Shown piece after piece: positions 2,291 through 20,963 of a stretch of DNA of 21,050 nt. Where the stretch lies: positions 1 through 21,050 of the IMG/VR virus record IMGVR_UViG_3300028666_000603, one strand, 5' to 3'. Numbering within the stretch: the stretch's first letter is position 1; every line of letters starts with the position of its first letter. Both the position numbers and the translations under genes were made by a program. The notes below the pieces were generated by a model. The model searched no databases, was not told the DNA's origin, and worked only from the letters and a program-made list of their open reading frames with translations. Source of the DNA: a virus.

Positions 2291-3754
2291 ATGTCATCAA
2301 TACTTTACGAAATACCAAGCGGAACGATAGACGGAGTCAATAAAGTCTTCACTGTTCTGAATTCTCCTAGTTTCATCACTTTGAATGGCCCTGTACAAGC
2401 TCCAGGAGGCGTTGATTACACGTTGAATGTATATACGATCACGTTTAACACAGCGCCTCCGGTCTCTTCAGTCTTGCTCTCATTCTATCTGTATCAATCT
2501 TCCAATCCTATATTACAGGTGCCTTCGACTGCGGGCTATTTTGTGACGATCGCGCAATTGAAGAATGATATCGAACGCATGATGAAAGGCACGTCCATCA
2601 AAGAAGTCGGAGACTTTTACGGCACTGCTGCCGGCGCAGCGAATAGGATGCTGGCGCGCATCGATACCGAAGAGACGAGAAGGACTGCAACCGCTCTCAC
2701 TCCGTTCTATGACAACGTGCAGGACTACGCGCTGCCAAGCGACTATAAGCGCATGATCGATATACGTCCGCAGGCGAATCGATATAATATGCCCGGACGG
2801 TCTAATTTTAGCGAGACTGCTGCAAAGCAATTCAATATGAATTTGGATGCGAATTCATTCTCGATCCGATGGAATAACATGATCCGCACCCTTAGAGCTC
2901 AACAGCTTCCTATCGGCAATGTATTGCAGATGGATTCATTTGATGGAGCCAATTCAAACGGCTTATGGATTGGTGAAGGCGATGCGTCGGGCCTCTATCA
3001 GGAGACATTGAACTTTGTCGAAGGCAACGGATCTCTCGGTTTCAATCTTTCAGGATATAGCGGGGCGGCTGATATCGTGAATACGACGGCTTCCGTCACT
3101 GACATGTCTGCCCTCAGAAAGAACGATGCATCGATATATAGCATTTATATCCCTATCGGCTATAGCTCCCGTTTTAACAGCCTCACTCTCCGTCGTGGCT
3201 CTGATGCGAACAATTATCTTGAAGCGACGACGATTTCAAAGATCGACGGCACCATATTTAACGACGGTTGGAACTTGGTCAAATTCGACTGGATCAGCGC
3301 GCGCGTCAATGGAACGCCTAACGATACGAAGAATACATATCGAAGGCTTGGATTCCAGTATACGATTGGCACCGCGATCAATGGCGTTCTCGTGGATAAT
3401 TGGACCGATGCTCTCGGAAATCTTTATGAGCTCGAGTACTATTCGAACTATCTTTTCGTGACTCAAACGGGCCAATGGGAATCTATCCCAACATCCGATA
3501 CCGATCTCGTTTGTGTCAGTCAGTCATCGTATGAGATATTGAAAGTCGAGATGATGGTCGATATCACCAAAGAGATCCGTACCGGTGCCGTTCAACAGAC
3601 TGAAGTAACGGATTGGCGCTTGATGCTGAATGGGCAGCCGCAGTCGCGTTACGTCAAGGATCCTCCGTATCATGGATTATATGCTGATTACCTTCGTATG
3701 TATCCTGCAAGCGCTATTCCGACGATCACTCGGACATATGCATTTGATTGTTAA
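2291..3754 (+). CDS. Podovirus head-to-tail adaptor-like protein with fibre-type N-terminus and jelly-roll insert
   Basis: The 487-residue protein starts after an A/T-rich leader without a Shine-Dalgarno site. Residues 1-75 (IPSGTIDGVNKVFTVLNSP, then APGGVDYTLNVYTITFNTAPP) match a small beta domain found at the start of many phage fibre and tail proteins. Residues about 85-170 look like a podovirus adaptor or connector: a helical run with RMMKGTSIKEVGDFYGTA and RMLARIDTEETRRTA, then FYDNVQDYALPSDYKRM with the typical YxLPxD. Residues about 220-390 look like an inserted beta-sandwich that may bind carbohydrate. The remainder probably completes the adaptor. In podoviruses this protein sits under the portal and carries the nozzle, and a nozzle-like gene follows seven bases downstream. 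Adaptor identity is by motif memory, not alignment. Confidence 0.58.
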   Translation: MSSILYEIPSGTIDGVNKVFTVLNSPSFITLNGPVQAPGGVDYTLNVYTITFNTAPPVSSVLLSFYLYQSSNPILQVPSTAGYFVTIAQLKNDIERMMKGTSIKEVGDFYGTAAGAANRMLARIDTEETRRTATALTPFYDNVQDYALPSDYKRMIDIRPQANRYNMPGRSNFSETAAKQFNMNLDANSFSIRWNNMIRTLRAQQLPIGNVLQMDSFDGANSNGLWIGEGDASGLYQETLNFVEGNGSLGFNLSGYSGAADIVNTTASVTDMSALRKNDASIYSIYIPIGYSSRFNSLTLRRGSDANNYLEATTISKIDGTIFNDGWNLVKFDWISARVNGTPNDTKNTYRRLGFQYTIGTAINGVLVDNWTDALGNLYELEYYSNYLFVTQTGQWESIPTSDTDLVCVSQSSYEILKVEMMVDITKEIRTGAVQQTEVTDWRLMLNGQPQSRYVKDPPYHGLYADYLRMYPASAIPTITRTYAFDC

Positions 3755-3760
3755 AAAATT

Positions 3761-5869
3761 ATGGCAACACAAAAATACAACGTACAGATGCAGGAAGACA
3801 GCTTTGCAGTGACGCAAGGCTTTCAATCATATGTCTCGAAGCCAGAGATCACCGCGCTTTCTCCTAACTATCTTGTGAAGGGTTCAAAGAACGTTTTGAT
3901 CGACTATGCCGCGCGCGTCATATCGAGGAACGGATATAAGCTCTATAATCAAGCCAACACTGGTTCAGGTGCCATCAAAGGATCATATGACTGGAACACA
4001 TCCACGGGAAAGTTTTTCAATCTCCGTTCATACGACAAGAATCTTGAATTCGACTGGAATGGAACATATAACAATCTTGTTTCAAACCTCACTAATCCAT
4101 ATCTTGAATTTTGTCAGGTTAATGACTCTACCGAGCAGACGGATGTCATGTTATTCGTTCAGGGCGATCAAAACTATTACCGATGGTCTGGTGGGGTGAG
4201 TAAGGTTTGGAAATCTACGTCAACAACTCTCACTAAACAGGGCGTCCTTACTGCTGTAACGACCATCGCTTTCGTTGCGGGAACCGCTGGTACTGTTGCT
4301 CCAACCATCACTGATTCTGCAAATAACTTTCTAAACGCTGGCTTTGCCGCTGGGGATACACTTTATGTGACTGGTTCAACTGCAAATAGCTTTCAATTTA
4401 CGATCGGCTCAGTGACTGCTGGTACGATCACGCTCGTTATGAGCAATGTTTTGACAAGCGAGGCTGCCGGTCAAACGATTACTATCCATAACGGAGAACC
4501 GACATGGAAGGCTTCTCGTTTCTTCGCTTCTGTCACTGGTCGTGCAATCATGTACAAAGGTATTGCCTATACCTATACAGGAGGTGAGACGACGGACACA
4601 TTGACTGGTTTGACAGCATTCCCGACTGTTGCGGTAGGCGATGCAGTATGGCAACAGGTTGTAAAGACTGCTCTGCCATCTGCCATTCTTTCTGCTTATC
4701 CAAACTTTGCCCCTGATTTGATCAATTGTCAGCTGAATCAAATCATTTTAGCCAGTACAAAGAGTTCCGTTATTTGCGGCTCATCAGCTACTGATTATAC
4801 CAATTATACCCTAACCTCCCCGCGCGCGCCTGCTGATCCTTTTCAAGCTGTCCTTACATCAGGCCCGGCAAAGTGTATCATTCCTATCGATACGATGAAG
4901 AACGTCTTCAATATACAAAGCAGCTTTGTCATCGGTTCTGGCAATAGCGTTTTTGATAGCATGGATTTCCATATGGATTCGACGAATGCTTATGAGCTTG
5001 TTCGAATGGTTATGTATCGCGTGTCGCAAAGCTCCGGCATCGCGTCAAAGAGCGCGTATTGCTCGGTCAAGGAAGCTACCGCTTATATCTCAAAAGAACC
5101 GGCATTGGACACGCTTGGTAATGTTGAAGCACCTGATGGAAAAAAGAATACACCTCTTTCCGATCTTATCAAGAATGATTTTGACGGATATGATTTCACC
5201 GGTTCGCATATTGTTTACTGGAAGCGCGCGATATACATATCGGTGCCGACGGCAGGAATAGTGTTGATATATGACTTGCAACGTTCGCTTTGGCAACCGC
5301 CTCAAACAATCCCTGTAGGTCGTTTTTCAATCATCAATGGATGGCTCTACGGACACTCATCGATCACCAATGAAACGTATCAGTTGTTCGTCGGAACGAC
5401 TGACAATGGCAATTTCATACCGCAGGCAGTACGTTTTGCATACAACAATGGAGGACGGAGGGATAGGATAAAAAGCATGACTGGATATTGGAGCGATGGT
5501 TACATCACTCCGAACGGCATTCTCAATATGAACATGAATTTTGGCTTTGATGGCATCTCCGGCAAGAAGACAATGACCATTTCAGGGGGCGATAAAACCA
5601 TTATAAATCCCGTAGATGGCTCGCCATTGGGCGATGCGCCGCTCGGCGAGAATCCGCTCGGCGGCTCGCCTTTTGATCCCATTAGCGGGCTTCCAGGGGC
5701 GGGAGTGCCATTGGTAAGGTTCTGGCAAGACGATAGCATGAAGAGCGTTGATTTTGTCGAGCATTTCGTAGAATACACCATGAATACGTTGGGCGGTCAA
5801 TTCGCTCTTGTAGCGCATGGATCGAATATGTTCGACGCCCAGACTGCGCCGATATCGCATAAGAAGTAG
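3761..5869 (+). CDS. Tail nozzle / stabilisation-like protein (podovirus tail tubular B type)
   Basis: The 702-residue protein starts seven bases after the adaptor-like gene with the leader ttaaaaaatt and no Shine-Dalgarno site. The N-terminus (SPNYLVKGSKNVLIDYAARVISRNGY) is the opening of podovirus nozzle or stabilisation proteins: a list of residues that anchor to the adaptor, then repeated strands (YDWNTSTGKFFNL, YNNLVSNLTNPYLEF, DVMLFVQGDQNYYRW) of a beta propeller. Residues about 160-250 interrupt the propeller with an extra beta domain (NNFLNAGFAAGDTLYVTGS) that looks inserted. The propeller resumes at NCQLNQIILAS and ends near YGHSSITNETYQLFVG. Residues about 620-645 hold the repeat PLGDAPLGENPLGGSP, a motif common near the end of phage tail proteins. 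It should form the distal tube of a short tail. Family is likely; exact subfamily is not resolved. Confidence 0.65.
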   Translation: MATQKYNVQMQEDSFAVTQGFQSYVSKPEITALSPNYLVKGSKNVLIDYAARVISRNGYKLYNQANTGSGAIKGSYDWNTSTGKFFNLRSYDKNLEFDWNGTYNNLVSNLTNPYLEFCQVNDSTEQTDVMLFVQGDQNYYRWSGGVSKVWKSTSTTLTKQGVLTAVTTIAFVAGTAGTVAPTITDSANNFLNAGFAAGDTLYVTGSTANSFQFTIGSVTAGTITLVMSNVLTSEAAGQTITIHNGEPTWKASRFFASVTGRAIMYKGIAYTYTGGETTDTLTGLTAFPTVAVGDAVWQQVVKTALPSAILSAYPNFAPDLINCQLNQIILASTKSSVICGSSATDYTNYTLTSPRAPADPFQAVLTSGPAKCIIPIDTMKNVFNIQSSFVIGSGNSVFDSMDFHMDSTNAYELVRMVMYRVSQSSGIASKSAYCSVKEATAYISKEPALDTLGNVEAPDGKKNTPLSDLIKNDFDGYDFTGSHIVYWKRAIYISVPTAGIVLIYDLQRSLWQPPQTIPVGRFSIINGWLYGHSSITNETYQLFVGTTDNGNFIPQAVRFAYNNGGRRDRIKSMTGYWSDGYITPNGILNMNMNFGFDGISGKKTMTISGGDKTIINPVDGSPLGDAPLGENPLGGSPFDPISGLPGAGVPLVRFWQDDSMKSVDFVEHFVEYTMNTLGGQFALVAHGSNMFDAQTAPISHKK

Positions 5870-5918: not shown

Positions 5919-7079
5919 ATGAGCTTAAAATATGTTCAAACTCCCGCAATCGCTCTCTATACCGGCATCGGAATCTCCGACACCTCTTGCAGAGTTACTC
6001 CTTATCCAACAGATCTTGATGGAAACAAACTAGTATTTTCTGACTTCGGAGATGTGGCAGTGTTTACAATCGATCCAAAGATTTCCGGTTATGAAGAGAT
6101 AGTCAGCTTCACTGGCATCACTGATAATGGCGACGGCACTGCAACCTTGACAGGCCTCACCCGCAACCTCATGGGAAAGTCCCCATACACAGCTTCCGCA
6201 TCTGGTGGAAAGACTCATGGCTCCTCCGCGGTAGTTGTCTTCTCGGATAATCCGCAGGTCTACAATGGCATCGTGGCATTCTTTACGGGGGCGATTATAG
6301 CAGGTGGCATACCGGCTACGACAACTGTTCTGGGGATTTCTAAACTATCGGTTGCACCGGTTTCTGCACCCTCCCCTATCGCTGTCGGAGATAATGACCC
6401 TCGTCTAGTGGCGGCAACTTTGGCAACTACTGTCGGTAATCTTCTTTTCCCTATTGGTTCTATTTATACGGCTACTGTTTCGACCAATCCAAACACGCTT
6501 CTGGGTTTTGGCACTTGGTCAGCCTATGGTGCAGGTCGTGTAATGATTGGTGCTGGCACTGGAACAAAAGTAGCAACATTTGCATCTCGTTCTTCAAACG
6601 TAATTACAGTCACGGGACTGACAAACGCTGCAAACAACGAATTTCAGACTGGTCAGGCGGTAGTATATTCAGCTCCAAGTGGTGCAATGACAGGACTGAC
6701 TTCAACCAATACATATTATGTCATTCGTACGGGAAATCTTACATTCTCACTTGCTTCATCTTTGGCTAACGCACAAAACGGTACAGCAATCTCACTTTCA
6801 TCTGACGGAACAGGTACACAAACATTTACCTTAACTCTTACTGCACGAACAGCTGGAGATACTGGTGGTGAAGAAAATCACGCAATGAGTGCTACAGAAT
6901 TGTTGGCACATGCACATACTTCACCAGCAAACAATTCGGGTGGATCCTCATCTGGTACTGTTGTACAGGGTTCGTCAGTAAATAATAGTGCGGCAACAAC
7001 CAACTCAACTGGTGGCAATGCCGCAATGAATACAATGCAACCATTTATCACGGTCTATATGTGGAATCGTACCGCTTAA
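5919..7079 (+). CDS. Tail-collar-domain fibre protein
   Basis: The 386-residue protein begins behind aaaaaataacc without a Shine-Dalgarno site. Residues about 170-205 (FPIGSIYTATVSTNPNTLLG, then FGTWSAYGAGRVMIGAG) are the signature of the phage tail-collar domain. The C-terminus (NTMQPFITVYMWNRTA) is the matching end of that domain, preceded by HAHTSP and Gly/Ser/Asn-rich linkers. Between these, residues about 225-305 (SNVITVTGLTNAANNEFQTG, LTSTNTYYVIRTG) form an extra beta domain of a type inserted into many phage fibres. The N-terminal 120 residues (DGDVAVFTIDP-like strands, GDGTATLTGLTRNLMG) are a separate beta module that probably anchors the fibre to the tail. The role is host recognition at the tail tip. 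Confidence 0.8.
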   Translation: MSLKYVQTPAIALYTGIGISDTSCRVTPYPTDLDGNKLVFSDFGDVAVFTIDPKISGYEEIVSFTGITDNGDGTATLTGLTRNLMGKSPYTASASGGKTHGSSAVVVFSDNPQVYNGIVAFFTGAIIAGGIPATTTVLGISKLSVAPVSAPSPIAVGDNDPRLVAATLATTVGNLLFPIGSIYTATVSTNPNTLLGFGTWSAYGAGRVMIGAGTGTKVATFASRSSNVITVTGLTNAANNEFQTGQAVVYSAPSGAMTGLTSTNTYYVIRTGNLTFSLASSLANAQNGTAISLSSDGTGTQTFTLTLTARTAGDTGGEENHAMSATELLAHAHTSPANNSGGSSSGTVVQGSSVNNSAATTNSTGGNAAMNTMQPFITVYMWNRTA

Positions 7080-7117: not shown

Positions 7118-8563
7118 ATGAGCACATCAGCACCAGCAGCAGCACCAGTCGCCCAAGCTTCCTACTCAGGAGGTCAGGCTCTTCCTGCAGTCGGATCGGC
7201 TGCATATACAGCGGCGCAAGGAATGGCGGCAGCCGCTGCTGCACCTGCTTCCCCTCTCATAACCACTTCCAGCGCGTCTCGAACCAATACCGCGAACAAC
7301 GTCAGCACGTTGAATACGGCGACGAGCAATCTTTCATCAGGACAATTGACGAAGAATGGCGTCATAGCCACTCCAAGCTCCACTGCTACGGCTCAAAACA
7401 TCGCAGATGCCAAAGCAGCCGGATGGGTACCGGTTACTACAACAACGCCTATTGCAGGAGGTGCAGCATCGCCGGCAGGCGGCTCGAGCACCTCAATAAA
7501 CGGTTCAGGGAGCGGTGCATCGCCTGCGGGAGGTTCGAGCACCTCGATAGTCGATTCCAATGGCAACACCATCGATACGACAGGCATGGATCCTGGGCTT
7601 GTTAAATCGTATACGGACACTATGACTGAACTCGATAGTCAGATCACTTCCGCAAAAGCCACTCTTGCTTCAGCTTCCGCAACATTAGCCAATGATCCTG
7701 CCGCCTCTGCTGCAGTGGCCAATATTCAAGATAGCTATGAACAACAGATAGAGCTTCAGAAAAAGAAGAATGCACAAATGCTCGGCCGCAGTTCGATGGC
7801 CGTTGCGGCCTTTGGCGGCCTCGGCCAGATGTCTTCCGATTTTCTTACGACAGAGCAGCAAAATGCTTCTGACAATATCGCAACCATAACTACCAAAGAA
7901 ACGAGCGCGGTTCTTGCCGCCCAGCAAGCCTATCAAAAGGGTGACCTTGCCGCTTTCAATACCGCTTCCGACAATCTTACAAAACTGACCCAGGATAAAC
8001 TATCGGCCATTGACAAGCTTATGACTGCTTCAGCCGCGGCTGTAAAGGATTTGCAAGCCCAGCAGAAGATCGATGCAGCCAATACCAAAGCCCAGCAAGC
8101 CTCCGACATCAAGCTCTCCACCTCTGTGGCCAATTCTATCGCACAGACGATCAAGGAAGAGGGACTAAAAGACCCGGCGACTATAAAGGCTTACATCGAT
8201 GGCGTGGCACAAGCTCAGGGTATCACTGATCCAACGATACTTGAATCGGCGGTTACAACCGCTCAAGGCACCTTGGCAAAAACTGCAAGTTCCATTGCAA
8301 ACACAAATAGCGAAATTAATGCAAGGAATAATCCAAAGCCAAAGACTCCGGCAAAACCAACTGGTACTGCCGATTACTCCAAATTCACCGTAAAGCCCTC
8401 TACGGCCGAGATAACCAAGGTCAATGCCTATCTCCAGTCGATTGGAGCGAATCAAGCGGGCATCGATGCCGCCAACGCCGACGAGACGACATTTTATAAA
8501 GTGTTGAATGCGGTGCCGAAGACTGGTACAGCATCGAGTACGGCGTCGACATACGCGGCATAA
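7118..8563 (+). CDS. Ala/Ser-rich helical virion protein, probable internal or ejected protein
   Basis: The 481-residue protein starts at the ATG after attaaataaataaaacc. Residues 1-100 are low-complexity Ala/Ser/Thr (SAPAAAPVAQASYSGGQALP). Residues about 112-150 carry a duplicated unit (ASPAGGSSTSI, twice) that is also visible as a DNA repeat. Residues about 160-395 are long Ala/Gln/Lys-rich helices, with SYEQQIELQKKKNAQML and QDKLSAIDKLMTASAAAVKD looking coiled-coil. The C-terminal 60 residues (YSKFTVKPSTAEITKVNAYL) form a small separate region. The composition and position directly before the giant polyvalent gene fit a protein packed inside the head or ejected with the DNA. No enzyme motif is seen and I do not recognise a named family. 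Confidence 0.6.
   Translation: MSTSAPAAAPVAQASYSGGQALPAVGSAAYTAAQGMAAAAAAPASPLITTSSASRTNTANNVSTLNTATSNLSSGQLTKNGVIATPSSTATAQNIADAKAAGWVPVTTTTPIAGGAASPAGGSSTSINGSGSGASPAGGSSTSIVDSNGNTIDTTGMDPGLVKSYTDTMTELDSQITSAKATLASASATLANDPAASAAVANIQDSYEQQIELQKKKNAQMLGRSSMAVAAFGGLGQMSSDFLTTEQQNASDNIATITTKETSAVLAAQQAYQKGDLAAFNTASDNLTKLTQDKLSAIDKLMTASAAAVKDLQAQQKIDAANTKAQQASDIKLSTSVANSIAQTIKEEGLKDPATIKAYIDGVAQAQGITDPTILESAVTTAQGTLAKTASSIANTNSEINARNNPKPKTPAKPTGTADYSKFTVKPSTAEITKVNAYLQSIGANQAGIDAANADETTFYKVLNAVPKTGTASSTASTYAA
7456..7551 (+). repeat. Direct repeat inside the Ala/Ser-rich virion gene
   Basis: Two in-frame copies encode ASPAGGSSTSI. One begins near 7464 and the other near 7518; both contain ggcgagcacctc-like sequence (ggctcgagcacctcaata and ggttcgagcacctcgata). 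The copies differ mainly at third codon positions, so the repeat is old enough to have drifted but the peptide is kept. Confidence 0.6.
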
Positions 8564-8570
8564 AAACAAT

Positions 8571-11500
8571 ATGGACTACGGAAGCTCTGCAGCAAATGCT
8601 TTGTTAGGAGGGGTAGCGAGTGCTCCGGGCACTTCGGCTACACCAGCAAAGACCTCTACAACCGATTATGGAAGCGCGGCGGCCAATACGCTACTCGGCG
8701 GCAAGAGTGCTGCCACGACTACATCAAACTATGGCAGTCCTGCGGCGAATACATTGCTGGGTTCATCTTCATCCACTATTCCAACCGTTCCAAACAAACC
8801 CCTTGACCTGTCTACTTTAATTACGAAGACTCAGCCAACGGACTTGAGCGGCATCTTCAATGGATTTTTGAAACAGAATAGTTTCTCGTTGCCAAGTTCG
8901 GTGCAACAGGCTCCGATAGCATCTGCAAGTACGCCGGCGATGCCGAGTGCACCGGGTACAGATATCGTCAATGATACAATGGCAGGATTGCCAGCGGCCG
9001 CTTCAACCGTTTCAAAATCTATTTATGATAAAGTAATCGGCGGACCTGCTGAACTTCTTTCAAATACCACTGCGGACACTCGTGCGGCCGCGGCACTAAA
9101 CAATGGCAATAAATTCTCTCAAGCAGGTCAAGAAGGATTGCAACTGGTGTCGCAACTCGGACTTGGTGTCATCAAGGGCCTGACTTTTAACGCAGTTTCA
9201 CCGGATAGTGTTACACAAAAAGAGGGCATAGATTCCAACGCGATATCGAATCAAGTGGCAAGCGGACTGGGAAACATACTCGGTGCCGTCGGAGGTATCT
9301 CTCTTGTGGCAAAGGGTATCGATGCAATTCCCGCTGTCGGCAAGATAGTTCAAACACTAAATACATTTGTCGGCCGGTACCCACTTGTGGCCAAATATAT
9401 CGCACCTTATATCGGCCCCTTGATATCAAATACAGGTGCTCTTGCCATTTCAGGACAACTTGATCCAGCTCTTGCAGACAATTTTAAAGCTCGTGCTACG
9501 ACATTATTAACAGATCTCGGTACAGCACCTCTTTATACGGCTCTTGGCATGATAAAAAACCCTCTATATGCTCTGCCACCGGCATTCGGCCTAGGCTTTG
9601 GTATGGCAAAATTAAGCGGTGCATCGAACAAAGATGCTGTTACTGCAGGTACTTTGTTTGCCTTTTTGCAAGTGTTATTGCCTGGAGAAGCATCGGGTAA
9701 GGCACAAGATGCCGCAGACGTGCTCGAACAGAATCAAAACGAGGCTCTTGATCTTTTGAATACATATTCAGACACCACCCTCACTAAAGATTCGACTCCG
9801 AAAGAAATCAAAGACGCTTATTATAAAGCTGCTCACCAGACGCATCCTGACGTTGGTGGTGCAAAAGAAGACTTCCAAGCCGTTCAAAACGCCTACGATG
9901 TCCTTACAAAAGGTGCTGTATCAAAGAATGGAGGCAAGCCGACTGATGCTGAAACAAGTGTCAAACTCCTTTCAAACGAAGTCAGCGACTCTGTTGAAAA
10001 GAACGGCGCGCCGGCAACGCATCAGGCGCTCATGGATAATCTTGGCGTGGACGAACCGACTGCAACACGTCTCGTAATTGCCGCAACCCGCCCCACCACC
10101 CCCGCCGAGATCAAAGCATCGTCAGATGAGGTGTTGAATACAGTAGCGCCAACAAGAGTAAGCGACACCACTACTTCTGATTCAGTACGTGCGTGGATCA
10201 ATCAAGGCACCCCAATACCTGAACACATAATGACCGGACTTGAGGCAACGCATCCAGGTGTTGATGAATTGACGTTTAATAAAGATAATGAAATCACTCT
10301 TTACCGTGACCAAGAGCCAAAGGCGGGACAGATAGAAAGCTATTCAACCACTCCAAAGGCAGGTCAAGAACCGTATGTTGTCAACAAGAGCGACGTTGTG
10401 GCAAACCTGAGTAGCAATGCAATGAAAGAAACTTTCAGCCGTGCATACCCAGGCAAAGATGTTCAATCTGTGGCAAATAAAGACATGCTGGCGAAGTATT
10501 CCAAACTGGAAGGCGAGGTGCTCGTGAAGAGTAAAGAAAAAGAAAATCCTGAAGAAGTCACCACTTCAAAACAATTTGAAAAGCTGCCGCGTGAAGAGCA
10601 AGAAAAAGTCTTCCCAACCCTCTCGCAAGAGCTTCAGCAGGAGATCACTGGCATGACTAATGAGGACTTGGCAAAAGGTGAGAAGCCCATCATCAGCGAT
10701 ATTCTATCGGGCAAGCAAAAGATACAGATACCTGATTCGATAAAGTCAGAGGTCATGACGCGCGTAGGCAAAGGAAACTACATGAGGATATTCCGCACGG
10801 CACCTGGCTTCTCAACGCTTGATGAGATAGCAAATGACAACGGCTTCAAGAGCGATGAAGACCTGCTCAACGAGATCGAGAGCGGTTTGAACGCAAGGAA
10901 GGCGGCGTTGCAAGGAGGCTTCATCAATCCAGGAAAAGTCTTGAGCGATATCGCTACGAAAGTGAAAGAGGTCACCGACCTTGTCAACAAAGACATCGAA
11001 GCGGCAAAGCTCACCGGCAATGTGAATGAGGCCATTTACCAGCACGAAGGGATGCGCGCGGCGAATCGCCAGAGGCTCATAACGCTCGTCGATCAGATAG
11101 GCAACGAGCTCACTGCAAAGGGATGGGAAGACCTCTACCACTATGACGAGAACAAGAGCGAACCGATAAGCGAGAGCGAGAAGAAGATATACGATGAGGT
11201 CATAACGCCTTTGAAAGACGCTCTTACGGCAGCTCGCGCGCAGTACCGCGAACTTGGCGGGGTCATTACCACGGACCTTCAGAACGAGATGACGCCGCGC
11301 TTTGCCAAAGAAAAAGGCGGTCCTATCGACAGGCTCTTGCAAAAAGGAAAGAACGCCAAGAAGACGCTTTCAAATGGATCGCTTCTCAGCCAGTCAGTCG
11401 GCTCCGGCTCAAAATCCCGTGAATACCACGTAGCGGTCGATGCGAACGGCAAGAGAACCGTCGTCCATATCCCGGGAGCAAAAGGCGAGAATGTCACTGC

Positions 11501-14348
11501 CTTCAATAATGGCGAGCTTACAAACCTTGGTTCGAACAAGAAGGTCATCAGCCCGCGCACGAAAGAATTCTTCGATAAGAATGTCACTCCTGTGCTCGAG
11601 AAGGTAGCCCGCGATCTTGGAGTTGTTCATGAAACAGCCCTCCTCAAAGGAAAGAAGGCTGGCATATCTCTTACGGGCCAAAAGAAGGTCATAACTCATC
11701 CTGGCGCGCCTGAGAGGGTCCTTATACACGAGATAGGCCATCAGGTGGACGAGAAATACGGCATGCAAGCGATATTCTCGAAGGATGATGCACGAAACTA
11801 TGGAAAAGACACCATGAAAGACGAGCAGCGCGCGGTTGCAGACCTACGCATCGGAGACGGGGACGTCAAGCCTTCATTCAAGAGCTACGTCAGAAAAGGC
11901 GAAGAGAAGATGGCAGCCATGTTTGAAGCCTACCTCCACGTTCCGGAACAGTTCCAGGAAGTCGCACCGAACCTCTACGAGAAGTTCGATGAATTCCTTG
12001 GCTCTCATCCTGAGCTCGCGCCGATACGCGACATCGAGAAGTCGCTCGAGCTTGGCATGAAGAAGACTGGCGGCCAGCATATCGGCGGCATCTCTCGCGG
12101 CAACTTCGTCTCAAGCGAAGGAAAGCAATATAAGATAGAGCAAGCGACGACGAAGGAGATCGAAGCCAATACGACGACGCGCTACCACAAGAACGTCCTT
12201 GCGAACTATATCGTCTCATACGATCGAACCTTGAACGCCTTGAATGCCATGAAGCTCCTCGAGCGCATCAAGAATACTCCTGAATTCGGCGAGATAATAA
12301 AAAAGGACGACCCGGACGAAGCGCCGCCGGAGAAGTGGGAATCGGTCGGAGACGTGCTGCCGCAGTTCAGGGGCTACCATATGGAGCCGCGACTTGCAGA
12401 AGCGCTGCAAGACCTTGCAAGCCGTCAAAAAGGCCAGACTCATTTCCCAGTGCTCGATGAAGTGAACAATTTCCTCACCTCGGCGATCGTCTTCAACCCT
12501 ATCATGCACTTGCCGAACGTCATCCAAGGATTCGGAATGACCGAAGCTAACACGGGCGTCATACCGGGTCTCACATCGAAGTCTCGCGCCAATTTCATCA
12601 CGGCTTTGAATGAGGTGAAGAATAAGGGGCCGCTCTACCTCAGCTACATCGAGCATGGAGCGCCTTTCATGGGGCTTAAAGAGACAACGAAGAACTTCTC
12701 TGAAGCGATCCTTACGCAATATACCGATGAGGTTGAAAAGGCTCCGACAGAGTTCGACCAGATCGCAAAGGTCCTCAATTATGCGAATCCGGTTGCATGG
12801 ATAAAAGGAATGGGAAAGATAAACACTGCGATCACCTGGGGCGGCAACGACGTTTTCTTCATGCACGCGTTGCTCGATCATGCAGATGCTACCGGCGGAA
12901 CGATGGAAGACTCGATACGGACCATTTCAAAGAGGATGGCCGATTACCGCATACCGTCCCGCATATTCGTGCCGGGGAAGACCGGCCGCGCGCTCTCAAA
13001 GACGCTTCAGTCGCGCGCATTCATGTTCGCCCGCTACCACTATTCCGGAGTCATCAAGCCGTGGATAGAGACTGTTAAGGACGCGGCGGGAACTAAAAAG
13101 ACGGCTCATGAGCGCATCGCAGGCATCCGTTCACTCGCTTATCTCGCGCTCATGGGCATGATCATATATCCATATATCGACAAGCTCATCAAAGGAATGA
13201 CCGGAAATCAGAACTCATATCTCACGATGTCAGGGCCGGTGAAGATAATACAAAACGCCGAAAATCTCGCTTCGGCAGGAGTGAGCGGCATATCAGGAGC
13301 GGTCCAAGCAACCGCCACCCTTTCTCCTGTGATGACGGCTCTTATCGAGCTTGGATTCAATACGGACATGTACACAAGGAATCCGATATACGGTCCGATG
13401 CCTGCGGAAGGAATGACATCGTTCGGCACGTCGATGGTCGCGCCGCTCTCAAGCGCCGACAGGATGACTCCAAGCGACTTTGCCCTATCGATGTTCGGCA
13501 TCTACTCGCCGAAGAACTCGAGCGGAAAGACAGCGCTCGATGCACAGAAATATGACGAGCTGCCGGTTCTCGAGATACAGGTCAAGAAAGACTTGGCTGC
13601 CGGTCTGACCGATAAAGCGAATGCAGAGATGAAGGACTTCAACGATCGCGCCATAGCGAACTACAACCAAGACATGCTCCAGACAGGAGGTCAACCTCTT
13701 CCAAAGGATGGATCGCAGAACGAGGCATTCTTGAAGCAGTGGGGCATCAAAGCACCGGGTGCAAAAGCTATGGCGAATGCTTCGAAGACCTATGGAGACG
13801 GATCTCTCACGTCAAAATCATCGATTTTGAGCACTATAAGCACGTATGCAAAAGCGATGGCCGTAAGCCCGATTGAGGCATTCCATCTCATGTTCAGCGG
13901 CCAGACGATAAAACAAGTGGACAATTTCAGCCCATTCAGCGGAGACTCGGCAATCATAGTCCAGCGTGCGTCCTTATCGACGACCGAAAAAGTGAAAGGA
14001 GACCAGGCGTCGGCCGATGGCGATACGACTACAAAAGGTCTTCAGCTTGATCATGTGATACCGCTCGAGGCCGGCGGCACGAATGATGCAAGCAATTTGA
14101 ACCTCATCACAACAGAGCAAGACGGCGGCGACCAACAGAAGCTCGAAGACACGCTCGGATCGGCAGTCAAAGCAGGCAAGATCTCTCAGGCGAACGTTCG
14201 AGAATATACCATCCGTTTCAAGGCTACCCAAATGCCAGGAGAGATCCTGCCAGACGCCATGATGCAAGAGTTCAAGGACAAATACGGATCGAAGCCTATG
14301 ACGCTTTCACAGATAAATTTGGCCATATCGAGCGGGGAAGCTAAATAG
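8571..14348 (+). CDS. Giant polyvalent virion protein: J-domain, ART-like region, zinc metallopeptidase, HNH
   Basis: The protein has 1925 residues. I chose the ATG at 8571, eight bases after the previous stop, because it begins the first of three repeats (DYGSxAANxLLG). Residues about 215-385 contain several hydrophobic, Gly/Ala-rich segments that could cross a membrane. Residues about 400-450 are a J-domain with an intact HPD at 425-427. Residues about 575-655 resemble an ADP-ribosyltransferase fold: R579 in LYRD, STT at 592-594 and ExE at 647-649. Residues 1053-1057 are HEIGH, with a likely third zinc ligand E1119 in MAAMFEAYL. Residues about 1290-1640 are a helical module with a hydrophobic stretch near 1520-1540. 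D1827-H1828 begins DHVIPLEAGGTNDASNLNLI, an HNH endonuclease motif. Such domain collections are known as polyvalent proteins, thought to be ejected with phage DNA to protect it or alter the host. J-domain, HExxH and HNH are clear; the ART call is tentative. Confidence 0.78.
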   Translation: MDYGSSAANALLGGVASAPGTSATPAKTSTTDYGSAAANTLLGGKSAATTTSNYGSPAANTLLGSSSSTIPTVPNKPLDLSTLITKTQPTDLSGIFNGFLKQNSFSLPSSVQQAPIASASTPAMPSAPGTDIVNDTMAGLPAAASTVSKSIYDKVIGGPAELLSNTTADTRAAAALNNGNKFSQAGQEGLQLVSQLGLGVIKGLTFNAVSPDSVTQKEGIDSNAISNQVASGLGNILGAVGGISLVAKGIDAIPAVGKIVQTLNTFVGRYPLVAKYIAPYIGPLISNTGALAISGQLDPALADNFKARATTLLTDLGTAPLYTALGMIKNPLYALPPAFGLGFGMAKLSGASNKDAVTAGTLFAFLQVLLPGEASGKAQDAADVLEQNQNEALDLLNTYSDTTLTKDSTPKEIKDAYYKAAHQTHPDVGGAKEDFQAVQNAYDVLTKGAVSKNGGKPTDAETSVKLLSNEVSDSVEKNGAPATHQALMDNLGVDEPTATRLVIAATRPTTPAEIKASSDEVLNTVAPTRVSDTTTSDSVRAWINQGTPIPEHIMTGLEATHPGVDELTFNKDNEITLYRDQEPKAGQIESYSTTPKAGQEPYVVNKSDVVANLSSNAMKETFSRAYPGKDVQSVANKDMLAKYSKLEGEVLVKSKEKENPEEVTTSKQFEKLPREEQEKVFPTLSQELQQEITGMTNEDLAKGEKPIISDILSGKQKIQIPDSIKSEVMTRVGKGNYMRIFRTAPGFSTLDEIANDNGFKSDEDLLNEIESGLNARKAALQGGFINPGKVLSDIATKVKEVTDLVNKDIEAAKLTGNVNEAIYQHEGMRAANRQRLITLVDQIGNELTAKGWEDLYHYDENKSEPISESEKKIYDEVITPLKDALTAARAQYRELGGVITTDLQNEMTPRFAKEKGGPIDRLLQKGKNAKKTLSNGSLLSQSVGSGSKSREYHVAVDANGKRTVVHIPGAKGENVTAFNNGELTNLGSNKKVISPRTKEFFDKNVTPVLEKVARDLGVVHETALLKGKKAGISLTGQKKVITHPGAPERVLIHEIGHQVDEKYGMQAIFSKDDARNYGKDTMKDEQRAVADLRIGDGDVKPSFKSYVRKGEEKMAAMFEAYLHVPEQFQEVAPNLYEKFDEFLGSHPELAPIRDIEKSLELGMKKTGGQHIGGISRGNFVSSEGKQYKIEQATTKEIEANTTTRYHKNVLANYIVSYDRTLNALNAMKLLERIKNTPEFGEIIKKDDPDEAPPEKWESVGDVLPQFRGYHMEPRLAEALQDLASRQKGQTHFPVLDEVNNFLTSAIVFNPIMHLPNVIQGFGMTEANTGVIPGLTSKSRANFITALNEVKNKGPLYLSYIEHGAPFMGLKETTKNFSEAILTQYTDEVEKAPTEFDQIAKVLNYANPVAWIKGMGKINTAITWGGNDVFFMHALLDHADATGGTMEDSIRTISKRMADYRIPSRIFVPGKTGRALSKTLQSRAFMFARYHYSGVIKPWIETVKDAAGTKKTAHERIAGIRSLAYLALMGMIIYPYIDKLIKGMTGNQNSYLTMSGPVKIIQNAENLASAGVSGISGAVQATATLSPVMTALIELGFNTDMYTRNPIYGPMPAEGMTSFGTSMVAPLSSADRMTPSDFALSMFGIYSPKNSSGKTALDAQKYDELPVLEIQVKKDLAAGLTDKANAEMKDFNDRAIANYNQDMLQTGGQPLPKDGSQNEAFLKQWGIKAPGAKAMANASKTYGDGSLTSKSSILSTISTYAKAMAVSPIEAFHLMFSGQTIKQVDNFSPFSGDSAIIVQRASLSTTEKVKGDQASADGDTTTKGLQLDHVIPLEAGGTNDASNLNLITTEQDGGDQQKLEDTLGSAVKAGKISQANVREYTIRFKATQMPGEILPDAMMQEFKDKYGSKPMTLSQINLAISSGEAK
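8574..8765 (+). repeat. Three N-terminal 13-residue repeats (DYGSxAANxLLGG)
   Basis: Copies lie at 8574-8612, 8664-8702 and 8727-8765, at residues 2-14, 32-44 and 53-65 of the polyvalent protein. Ser/Thr/Ala linkers separate them. DNA identity between copies is moderate and concentrated at first and second codon positions, so the peptide is under selection. They may be short docking or processing motifs for packing the protein in the virion; that role is inference. Confidence 0.7.
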
Positions 14349-14527: not shown

Positions 14528-14585
14528 ATATGAATCCAACACTCGTAGAAGGTCAATTAAAAACGTCTTATTCTAAATGGTTGTT
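14528..14585 (+). pseudogene. Duplicated 5' fragment of the endolysin gene
   Basis: ATATGAATCCA at 14528-14538 is repeated exactly at 15069-15079, where it holds the start codon of the endolysin. The reading frame here gives MNP, then LVEGQLKTSYSKWLFK. The endolysin gives MNPLYPI, then LVENQMGHGYLSKFLK. The LVExQ and Y(L)SK positions line up. The fragment lies just before the reverse-strand homing endonuclease, whose last codons overlap it. It is best read as the old 5' end of the endolysin gene, left behind when the mobile gene arrived. Confidence 0.5.
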
Positions 14586-15045
14586 CAAAAATTCTCTTTA
14601 TTTTCCAACCCCTTTCAAATCTTGCATACAATGCTGTCGGTTTTATTTTAAGTATCTCTGCCCATTCAGAAATACAATGAGATTTTCCTTTATAATGCAA
14701 GATTCTATTCCAAGAACTGTTTCGCGCTTGAACTTTAAAAGTAGTCCATTTGCAATTTTCTTTGCAATAGTTTCCATTATTGTCTATTCTCTCTATCGTC
14801 GTCTGTCTCTCTCCGTGGATCTTCTTGTGTTTAAGATAAGAAATATACATATCTTTCTTGAAATCAATAAAATCTTTCCACAAAACTTTTATTCCACGTC
14901 CACCATATCTGTGATACATAACTTGTTTGGGAAGATTACATCTATTATTCATAGAAAGATACCTATTATGAAAAGAGGTATCACTAAGTCCGTGTGTCAA
15001 TCTTTCTTGGTGACCTTTTGTAAACCTGCCTTTTTTATTCCTCAT
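14557..15045 (-). CDS. HNH homing endonuclease with C-terminal NUMOD-like DNA-binding helix
   Basis: The 162-residue protein is encoded against the surrounding genes. Residues 1-13 (KKGRFTKGH) are a basic arm. YHRYGGRGIKVLWKDF at 44-59 and ERIDNNGNYCKENCKWTTFK at 85-104 are signatures of the phage HNH homing family: YGGRGI, then D-x-NG-Y-x-xNC-W. Residues about 117-150 (HYKGKSHCISEWAEILKIKP) form a NUMOD1-like helix-turn-helix for target binding. The gene is clearly richer in A/T than its neighbours and sits in reverse orientation, which are signs of a free-standing mobile gene. It ends inside a fragment copied from the start of the endolysin gene. Its leader (aatttaatttaaaatttaa) has no Shine-Dalgarno site. 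All conserved HNH positions that I know appear intact, so it may be active. Confidence 0.85.
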   Translation of the reverse strand: MRNKKGRFTKGHQERLTHGLSDTSFHNRYLSMNNRCNLPKQVMYHRYGGRGIKVLWKDFIDFKKDMYISYLKHKKIHGERQTTIERIDNNGNYCKENCKWTTFKVQARNSSWNRILHYKGKSHCISEWAEILKIKPTALYARFERGWKIKRIFEQPFRIRRF

Positions 15046-15070: not shown

Positions 15071-16093
15071 ATGAATCCATTATATCCTATATTAGTAGAA
15101 AATCAAATGGGCCACGGCTACCTATCCAAATTTCTCAAGCCAACCGATTGGCACTATAAGAATATCGTTCCAAAAGGAACGCCGCCGGTAGATTGGACAG
15201 TGCCTTACGATGTCGAAAAAGCCATCGGCTTCACGTTGCCGGACAAGAATCAAGGCGTCTCAGGCTCCTGCGGCGGCCAGATGACAAGCTATCTCGCGCA
15301 AGCTATCTTTGGCGACAGCGAACGATCGGCTAAATTCGCCTATGACCCCGTAGCACAACCGGGAGGCGGCTCGTATGCAGGCGACCTCATGGCACGTCTC
15401 AAAAACATCGGCGTCTCGTCCGAAATCCTGTGCCCGTCATACGAGAACGGAAATCCCCCTTCAGAGGCATTCATGGAAGCTCCCGACATCACTGCGGCAG
15501 CCATCAATGACGCTGCCATGAACAAAGACGGAGGCTATTCATTCATCCTTGATTTTAATATAGACGTGCTTGCACAGGCGATAAGAGACAACGTGGCGAT
15601 CGGCGGGGCGCTTCTCGGACAGAACAATGGAACATGGCTCTCGTCGTTTCCGGCCCCTCCGACATCAGCAGAGTGGGGGCATTTCATATTCCTGGGACGA
15701 TACGCGATGATCAACGGGAAAAAATACATAGGATTCAAAAATTCATGGGGACCGACGGTGGGCGACAAAGGATGGCAGTGGATAGGCGAAGACTATATCA
15801 ATTCAGGCTTCTTCGAGCTTGGCATCGTTATTTCAAAAACTGTAGCATCGTATCAATTCAACAAAGACCTCTTCGTCGGCATGACCGACGCAGACGTCTT
15901 CTTTCTCCAAAAGAGACTCAATCAAAATCCTGCAACACAGATAGCGACCTCAGGCCCGGGTAGTCCGGGCAATGAGACATATTATTTCGGCGCTCTAACG
16001 AAAGCGGCAGTGATTCGCTACCAGCAACAGAATGGAATTACTCCTTCAGTCGGGTTCGTTGGATCTATTACAAGGTCTTTCTTAAATAAATAA
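15071..16093 (+). CDS. Endolysin-like papain-family (C1) cysteine peptidase with peptidoglycan-binding domain
   Basis: The 340-residue protein shows a complete papain-type active site: Q61 (oxyanion hole) and C67 in QGVSGSCGG, H204 in WGHFIFLG and N224 in GFKNSWG. The C-H and H-N spacings (137 and 20) suit the family. There is no signal peptide, as expected for a holin-dependent lysin. Residues about 265-340 (LFVGMTDADVFFLQKRLNQ, then YFGALTKAAVIRYQQQNGI and VGFVGSITRSFLNK) form a peptidoglycan-binding type 1 repeat. Its wording is very like repeats common in Patescibacteria cell-wall proteins. It probably cuts peptide cross-bridges of the host wall. A holin-like gene follows after four bases. 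The leader (aattaataat) lacks a Shine-Dalgarno site, and the 5' end borders an HNH insertion. A structural or secreted protease role is less likely. Confidence 0.8.
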   Translation: MNPLYPILVENQMGHGYLSKFLKPTDWHYKNIVPKGTPPVDWTVPYDVEKAIGFTLPDKNQGVSGSCGGQMTSYLAQAIFGDSERSAKFAYDPVAQPGGGSYAGDLMARLKNIGVSSEILCPSYENGNPPSEAFMEAPDITAAAINDAAMNKDGGYSFILDFNIDVLAQAIRDNVAIGGALLGQNNGTWLSSFPAPPTSAEWGHFIFLGRYAMINGKKYIGFKNSWGPTVGDKGWQWIGEDYINSGFFELGIVISKTVASYQFNKDLFVGMTDADVFFLQKRLNQNPATQIATSGPGSPGNETYYFGALTKAAVIRYQQQNGITPSVGFVGSITRSFLNK

Positions 16094-19302: not shown

Positions 19303-19382
19303 TATGGGACTTATATACAATACTACCCTAAATCTTAAATCATTGAAATTATGACTTATAAATGTTAGGCTTAATTTAAGGG

Positions 19383-19465
19383 TGCGCCGAACGGGATTCG
19401 AACCCGTACGTCTTGCGGACACCTGCTCACAAAGCAGGCACGGATACCAGTTTCGTCATCGGCGC
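19383..19465 (-). tRNA. Class II (Leu-like) tRNA with UGU anticodon
   Basis: On the minus strand the acceptor arms GCGCCGA and TCGGCGC pair fully. The T arm is ACGGG-TTCGAAT-CCCGT. The anticodon stem CCTGC/GCAGG closes a seven-base loop TTTGTGA. A 14-base variable region (TGTCCGCAAGACGT) can form a small stem, so this is class II, like tRNA-Leu, -Ser or -Tyr. The D arm wording (ACGAAACTGGTAT) and discriminator A are most like tRNA-Leu. Counting the loop normally gives anticodon UGU, which reads Thr ACA and does not match a Leu body. The D stem is short, position 21 is T instead of A, and the 3' end reads ACC then C, so CCA is not fully encoded. It is either an unusual functional tRNA or a decaying one. 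Confidence 0.75.
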
Positions 19466-20510: not shown

Positions 20511-20963
20511 TTAATCGACTATCTTGAACCCTAAAGCAGCCAAGAAATCAGGCAATTGCTTTTTGGTCAATTCTTTTGTGCCGCCTATTCCGTAGAATTT
20601 TGCGTTATGTAATTCGGCATCATAGAGGTTGGCACCCCTGAGGTCGGCATCATAGAGGTCGGCACCATTGAGGTTGGTACCATTGAGGTCGGCATAACTG
20701 AGGTTGGCATAACTGAGGTTGGCACCATTGAGGTCGGCATAACTAAGGTCGGCATAACTGAGGTTGGCATAACTGAGGTTGGCATCACCTTTTTCTATGA
20801 TAGCTTCTTTGTACGTTGTCTTTGTGCTTTGGAAGATAATACTACCTGTCAAACGATTTTTGATAGCGATACCTACGACTTTTTCTTCTTTCTTGTTTTC
20901 TATTTCATCAATAAAAGTTTTGATTTGCGAGAGATTGTCTAATACTTGTTGTTTGGTTATCAT
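20511..20963 (-). CDS. Pentapeptide-repeat protein
   Basis: The 150-residue protein has a helical N-terminus (residues 1-28), a short beta region, then 13 pentapeptides at 61-125 of the form A(N/D)LSY, A(D/N)LNG and ADLYD. This is the A(D/N)LxX pattern that folds into a right-handed quadrilateral beta helix. The last 25 residues ([21 protein letters not shown]) form a helical cap. Some pentapeptide proteins mimic DNA and protect or block gyrase; many have no known role. With only 13 units the helix is short, about three turns. The leader is A/T-rich (ataaataaaaat) without a Shine-Dalgarno site. The identity of neighbouring repeats suggests recent expansion. Confidence 0.88.
20589..20783. repeat. 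Tandem 15-base repeats encoding pentapeptides
   Basis: Thirteen units of 15 bases, of the type gaggttggcataact and gaggtcggcaccatt on the plus strand. Several neighbours are identical or differ by one base, including at silent positions, so they look recently copied by slippage or unequal exchange. Confidence 0.85.

Follow-up and report, generated by a model that had tools for sequence, protein, structure and literature searches.

Ejection proteins of podoviruses include gp14-16 of T7, gp7/16/20 of P22 and the vRNAP of N4, and membrane-anchored J-proteins are exemplified by Pam18/Tim14 and Sec63. Phage polyvalent proteins, surveyed in 2017, join biochemically disparate domains within a single long chain (Iyer et al. 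2017, PMC5512222). A phage-encoded J-protein, Rki of phage RB43, contains an HPD motif and targets DnaK; it is a stand-alone protein and is expressed early (PMC3486835). No J-domain in an ejected or virion protein was found in the literature searched, which covered few subscription papers.

The window analyzed here, a linear 21-kb virus record (IMGVR_UViG_3300028666_000603; 21,050 nt), contains a gene for a giant protein that was compared with each of these systems. Its position after tail genes, its large size, and its helical and hydrophobic regions are reminiscent of podoviral ejection proteins, but no sequence relation to them was detected. As in Pam18/Tim14 and Sec63, a J-domain comes right after a hydrophobic segment; however, homology is limited to the J-domain, and a common role would be by analogy. 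The giant protein resembles surveyed polyvalent proteins (PMC5512222) by its predicted zincin metallopeptidase, by an ART-PolyVal-like relative, and by a core found beside a methylase and an SNF2 helicase in another phage, but differs from them by its J-domain, a possible R-S-E-type ART motif, and a Patescibacteria-type host. It shares with Rki (PMC3486835) a phage-encoded J-domain with HPD, embedded here in a probable virion protein.

Gene order and host

The window displays the gene order adaptor-tail-fibre-helical-giant-lysin (Table 1). The single frame proposed in a sequence-only reading was found intact; the mechanical ORF begins at position 8508, and the start at 8571 sits 7 nt past the stop of the upstream gene. 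The same order was found around a second J-domain giant (L091) and in a prophage of a Paceibacteria-class genome (G316), and the three giant genes all come right after short-tail genes, with no tape measure between. The gene order in these three genomes suggests that the giant protein is probably a virion/ejection protein. The product of 15071-16093 is probably a lysin, and in the G316 prophage, too, the giant gene is followed downstream by a gene with these two domains.

Table 1. Features of the window and modules of the giant protein.
Feature	Position	Strand	Remarks
Adaptor-like protein	2291..3754	+	487 aa; weak SU10_adaptor match
Tail protein	3761..5869	+	702 aa; function by gene order
Tail fibre/collar-like protein	5919..7079	+	Gp10 C-terminal domain
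Helical ejection-like protein	7118..8563	+	481 aa, directly upstream of giant gene; putative function
Giant polyvalent, ejection-type protein (predicted)	8571..14348	+	1925 aa, uninterrupted frame
Low-charge hydrophobic stretch, membrane-like	9168..9692	+	aa 200-374; putative membrane insertion
J-domain	9726..9926	+	aa 386-452; HPD 9843-9851 (aa 425-427)
Small helical block	9948..10145	+	aa 460-525, common to giant protein and P0002
ART-like slot	10191..10610	+	aa 541-680; R-S-ExE-like motif only
Helical core A	10866..11522	+	aa 766-984
Zincin-type metallopeptidase (predicted)	11523..12095	+	aa 985-1175; HEIGH 11727-11741, Glu1112 11904-11906
Core B	12105..13676	+	aa 1179-1702; hydrophobic helix near 1516-1540
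Cys-less HNH-type module	13968..14255	+	aa 1800-1895
Papain-like peptidase + peptidoglycan-binding domain	15071-16093	+	downstream of giant gene

The helical protein encoded upstream of the giant gene showed 50% identity over 155 aa to its counterpart in a 45.9 kb phage (G001). Two distant relatives have counterparts (L016 13763-16006 and L017 13362-15665) whose final stretch looks, by eye, lysozyme- or CHAP-like, a frequent trait of ejection proteins. If the ends of the 45,929-bp G001 record were joined (L007/L008), its helical gene and giant gene would be fused in frame, but this fusion is not claimed, because no repeat is present at the ends of the record and the homology does not continue across the junction.

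On the opposite strand, a 162-aa frame (14557-15045, minus strand) occupies the interval that separates the giant gene from the lysin gene and, judged by eye, resembles a homing-endonuclease-type protein of phages; the corresponding interval in G001 spans only ~190 nt, and the frame is thus a probable insertion. The record also carries a tRNA-Thr (TGT) gene (19381-19465, minus strand) and a gene for a pentapeptide-repeat protein of 150 aa (20511-20963, minus strand). The N-terminal region of the giant protein (8577-8759, plus strand; aa 3-63) shows the motif YGSxAANxLLG three times, possibly as a packaging or docking signal.

Relatives of the fibre protein were found in four MAGs, all of Paceibacteria/Parcubacteria type, and the G316 prophage contains a tail gene, a helical gene, the giant gene, a lysin gene and an integrase gene, followed by a Mur ligase gene. 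From this one prophage and the fibre relatives, the virus is likely a podovirus of the tiny Patescibacteria (class Paceibacteria). DnaK was found in all four of the Paceibacteria-type MAGs tested.

Modules of the giant protein

The HPD and HEIGH motifs were found at residues 425-427 and 1053-1057, as previously proposed, and the LDHV motif at 1826. When the giant protein was shuffled, HPD arose by chance in 8% of cases, HExxH in 2% and both in 0.12%; the motifs by themselves are only moderately unlikely, and it is the profile evidence that decides.

The Pfam DnaJ profile matched residues 404-447 with E=1.5e-9 in the whole protein and E=2e-11 in the segment alone, whose score of 44.3 bits is above the curated cut-off of 27.8. 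With an HMM derived from 55 viral J-domains, this domain scored 60.8 bits, and none of 200 shuffles was reported. AF2 predicted three helices around HPD with a pLDDT of 90-96; its input alignment was shallow and combined viral J-domains with peptidase homologues, so that other J-domains were included. An earlier run without alignment (pLDDT 46) was set aside. In a Foldseek comparison, the J helices superposed on Tim14 (2guz), the closest solved fold, at 0.9 A over 60 columns with a probability of 1.00, the E-value being only 0.72 because the J-domain is a small part of the 796-residue query. HPD is kept in the sequence, as are the basic positions of helix II, which we take to be Lys414 and Lys419 by numbering against E. 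coli DnaJ. The predicted J-domain is thus genuine by profile and predicted fold, in agreement with the sequence-only reading, and stimulation of an Hsp70 ATPase is its putative activity. That reading had also described a J-domain as an unusual member of a polyvalent protein, and the text of the 2017 survey contains zero mentions of DnaJ, J domain or DnaK (PMC5512222). The domain begins ~12 residues past the last hydrophobic segment of aa 200-374, a stretch that ranks with the least charged and the most hydrophobic portions of the giant protein.

A zinc peptidase had been proposed around HEIGH, and the predicted fold supports this. Identity in the HEIGH block was 66% with G001 and 41% with the 3980-aa polyvalent protein of an 83-kb phage (L014), and H1053, E1054, H1057 and E1112 are invariant in the three proteins. 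The core, predicted with a pLDDT mostly of 82-91, is zincin-like (a helix, short strands, the HExxH helix and a helix bearing the Glu) and matches solved zincins weakly by Foldseek. E1119 was rejected as the third zinc ligand, since it is replaced by Met in L014; E1112 fits. With Pfam peptidase family M90, the segment scored 25.5 bits (E=1.2e-5), just below the cut-off of 26.2, and we therefore label aa 985-1175 a predicted zincin-type metallopeptidase, M90-like. It resembles MtfA and the M90 family by HExxH, a downstream Glu in a second helix and a similar tail, but, apart from this score, differs in being embedded in a giant protein.

The HNH profile matched the giant protein weakly, below the cut-off; the block is nonetheless conserved in relatives. 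Residues 1800-1895 fall into a group that lacks Cys and has the pattern DHxIxLELGGSNDxSNL...K/D..EN.L, in which DH and N are kept and the third catalytic residue is not evident. Of the HNH domain proposed earlier, a conserved HNH-type module is thus retained, as a putative nuclease, but not a catalytically complete set. Stand-alone HNH-type proteins in Paceibacteria-class genomes (L110, L111, L112 and L117) closely resemble the module carried by the phage giants, and most of them start with an apparent signal peptide.

The ART-like region proposed at residues 570-660 is the weakest module and only a lead at present. An R-S-ExE-like motif could be traced by eye (LYR 577-579, SYST 590-593, EGE 647-649), but ART support for this slot was found neither by profile, nor by sequence, nor by fold, the structure model being of low confidence. 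A search of viral contigs with the ART segment gave no match, and Erwinia phage matches were judged to be due to chance, as the segment aligned with a repeat-rich, motif-less protein. In the relative P0002, the same slot matched ART-PolyVal (PF18760, E=4e-5, below the cut-off).

Relatives and recurrence of the J-domain

G001 encodes the core, the peptidase, the HNH-type module and ART, with no J-domain in the part present; its record breaks off within the giant gene, at a point 185 residues before the conserved block that starts at aa 460 in the window protein. The G316 protein contains an HNH-type module, N-terminal instead of C-terminal, a hydrophobic region and the core; another stretch replaces the peptidase, and there is no J-domain. 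In L014, a methylase and an SNF2 helicase accompany the core and the peptidase. The part common to homologues is core A plus core B, while J, ART, peptidase and HNH-type modules vary, and because two relatives (G001 and G316) contain no J-domain, this domain is not needed in this protein family in general. A search for more core homologues in Patescibacteria returned only G316, and a single-protein search of viral contigs with P0001 gave no match.

In the viral fold library BFVD, a best match was a 'Large polyvalent protein associated domain' protein. Together with the J-domain, zincin and HNH-type module in one polypeptide and the core shared with L014, this match argues, as previously suggested, that the giant protein is a polyvalent protein, and gene position suggests that it would be delivered with DNA. 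Phages of Patescibacteria, which are little studied, would thereby be linked to a giant protein whose modules are exchanged around a defined core.

Among the best 80 of 127 viral loci matching the J-domain profile, nearly all were stand-alone proteins of ~210-345 aa. Stand-alone DnaJ-like proteins of ~260 and 305 aa (L025-L104) are common in uncultivated phages. Matches in phage records (Alteromonas, Klebsiella and others) came from other phages, and the two that were looked up, R7M (219 aa) and L011 (305 aa), are stand-alone DnaJ-like proteins. In a host, a J match in a frame of 1005 aa proved to be DnaK adjoining DnaJ, read through a stop.

The 1665-aa L091 protein contains a DnaJ match above the cut-off (E=8.4e-9, aa 294-333), and its gene follows those of an SU10-type adaptor, a tail protein, a LamG fibre and a small helical protein. 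Outside the J-domain, no significant pairwise match was found between L091 and the window protein. Since the domain is at the same genomic place in an otherwise dissimilar giant, this arrangement occurs at least twice, and further J-domain giants may exist beyond the best 80 of the 127 loci. In L091, the stretch before the J-domain is rich in small residues and only mildly hydrophobic, and one basic residue is missing from helix II.

Possible roles of the J-domain

The sequence-only reading had raised two putative roles, help with unfolding for ejection and steering of host DnaK during infection. What was computed here comprises the folds, the gene order, the conservation of the core and the recurrence of a J-domain giant; from virion location and entry to membrane insertion and DnaK recruitment, the steps below are those that we infer. 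Because aa 200-374 are hydrophobic and the J-domain follows so closely, we tentatively favor, at somewhat less than an even chance, a giant ejection-type protein with a membrane-proximal DnaK-recruitment site that draws in and refolds the ejected chain. As suggested by its gene position and class, the protein would be packaged in the virion and enter the cell at about the same time as the DNA, and the low-charge hydrophobic stretch would lie in or across the inner membrane. The J-domain would face the cytosol and stimulate host DnaK at that place, by analogy with Pam18/Tim14 and Sec63, which recruit Hsp70 at membrane channels. DnaK might then clamp the emerging chain, help pull it inward and refold the downstream modules, after which the zincin domain may cleave either a host target or the giant protein itself; host targets may also be acted on by the ART-like and HNH-type modules. 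A built-in import motor of some podoviruses, with the J-domain placed at the inner face of the membrane and DnaK ratcheting the giant protein inward, perhaps together with the leading part of the DNA, would be a rather unlikely form of such a role, proposed by analogy with Pam18 and Sec63 in organelles.

A J-domain in a probable virion protein would mean that the phage brings its own cochaperone, as opposed to expressing one after infection; some phages may thus draw on the host chaperone as soon as infection starts. The passage of giant ejection proteins through the membrane, and their refolding, would become directly testable through one HPD point mutation.

The J-domain is accessory, since it is absent from G001 and G316, and for the same reason a role like that of Rki, although somewhat improbable in itself, is nearly as likely as a membrane-proximal site. 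According to this main rival, the J-domain would bind DnaK after entry and redirect or inhibit it, affecting the stress response or defence sensing through DnaJ/DnaK, and its place after a hydrophobic region would be incidental. The domain indeed lies in the module zone exchanged between relatives, the other modules look effector-like, and Rki is a precedent for a phage J-protein that targets DnaK (PMC3486835). However, Rki is stand-alone and made early after infection rather than being a virion protein, and the J-domain of L091, where the other modules are missing, has a matching location with respect to the N-terminus.

The J-domain could also act before release, with DnaK of the producing cell maintaining the 200-kDa protein in a soluble, packaging-ready state. 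A large multidomain protein with a hydrophobic stretch might need such help, and DnaJ proteins of jumbo phages were predicted to aid folding and assembly (PMC7824862), but relatives of similar size and hydrophobicity contain no J-domain, and we consider this role distinctly unlikely. That the domain is a degenerate remnant without function is very improbable: only two J-domain giants were present among the loci fetched (the best 80 of 127), but the window protein retains HPD and the charges of helix II, the domain scores well, and it is found in two dissimilar proteins.
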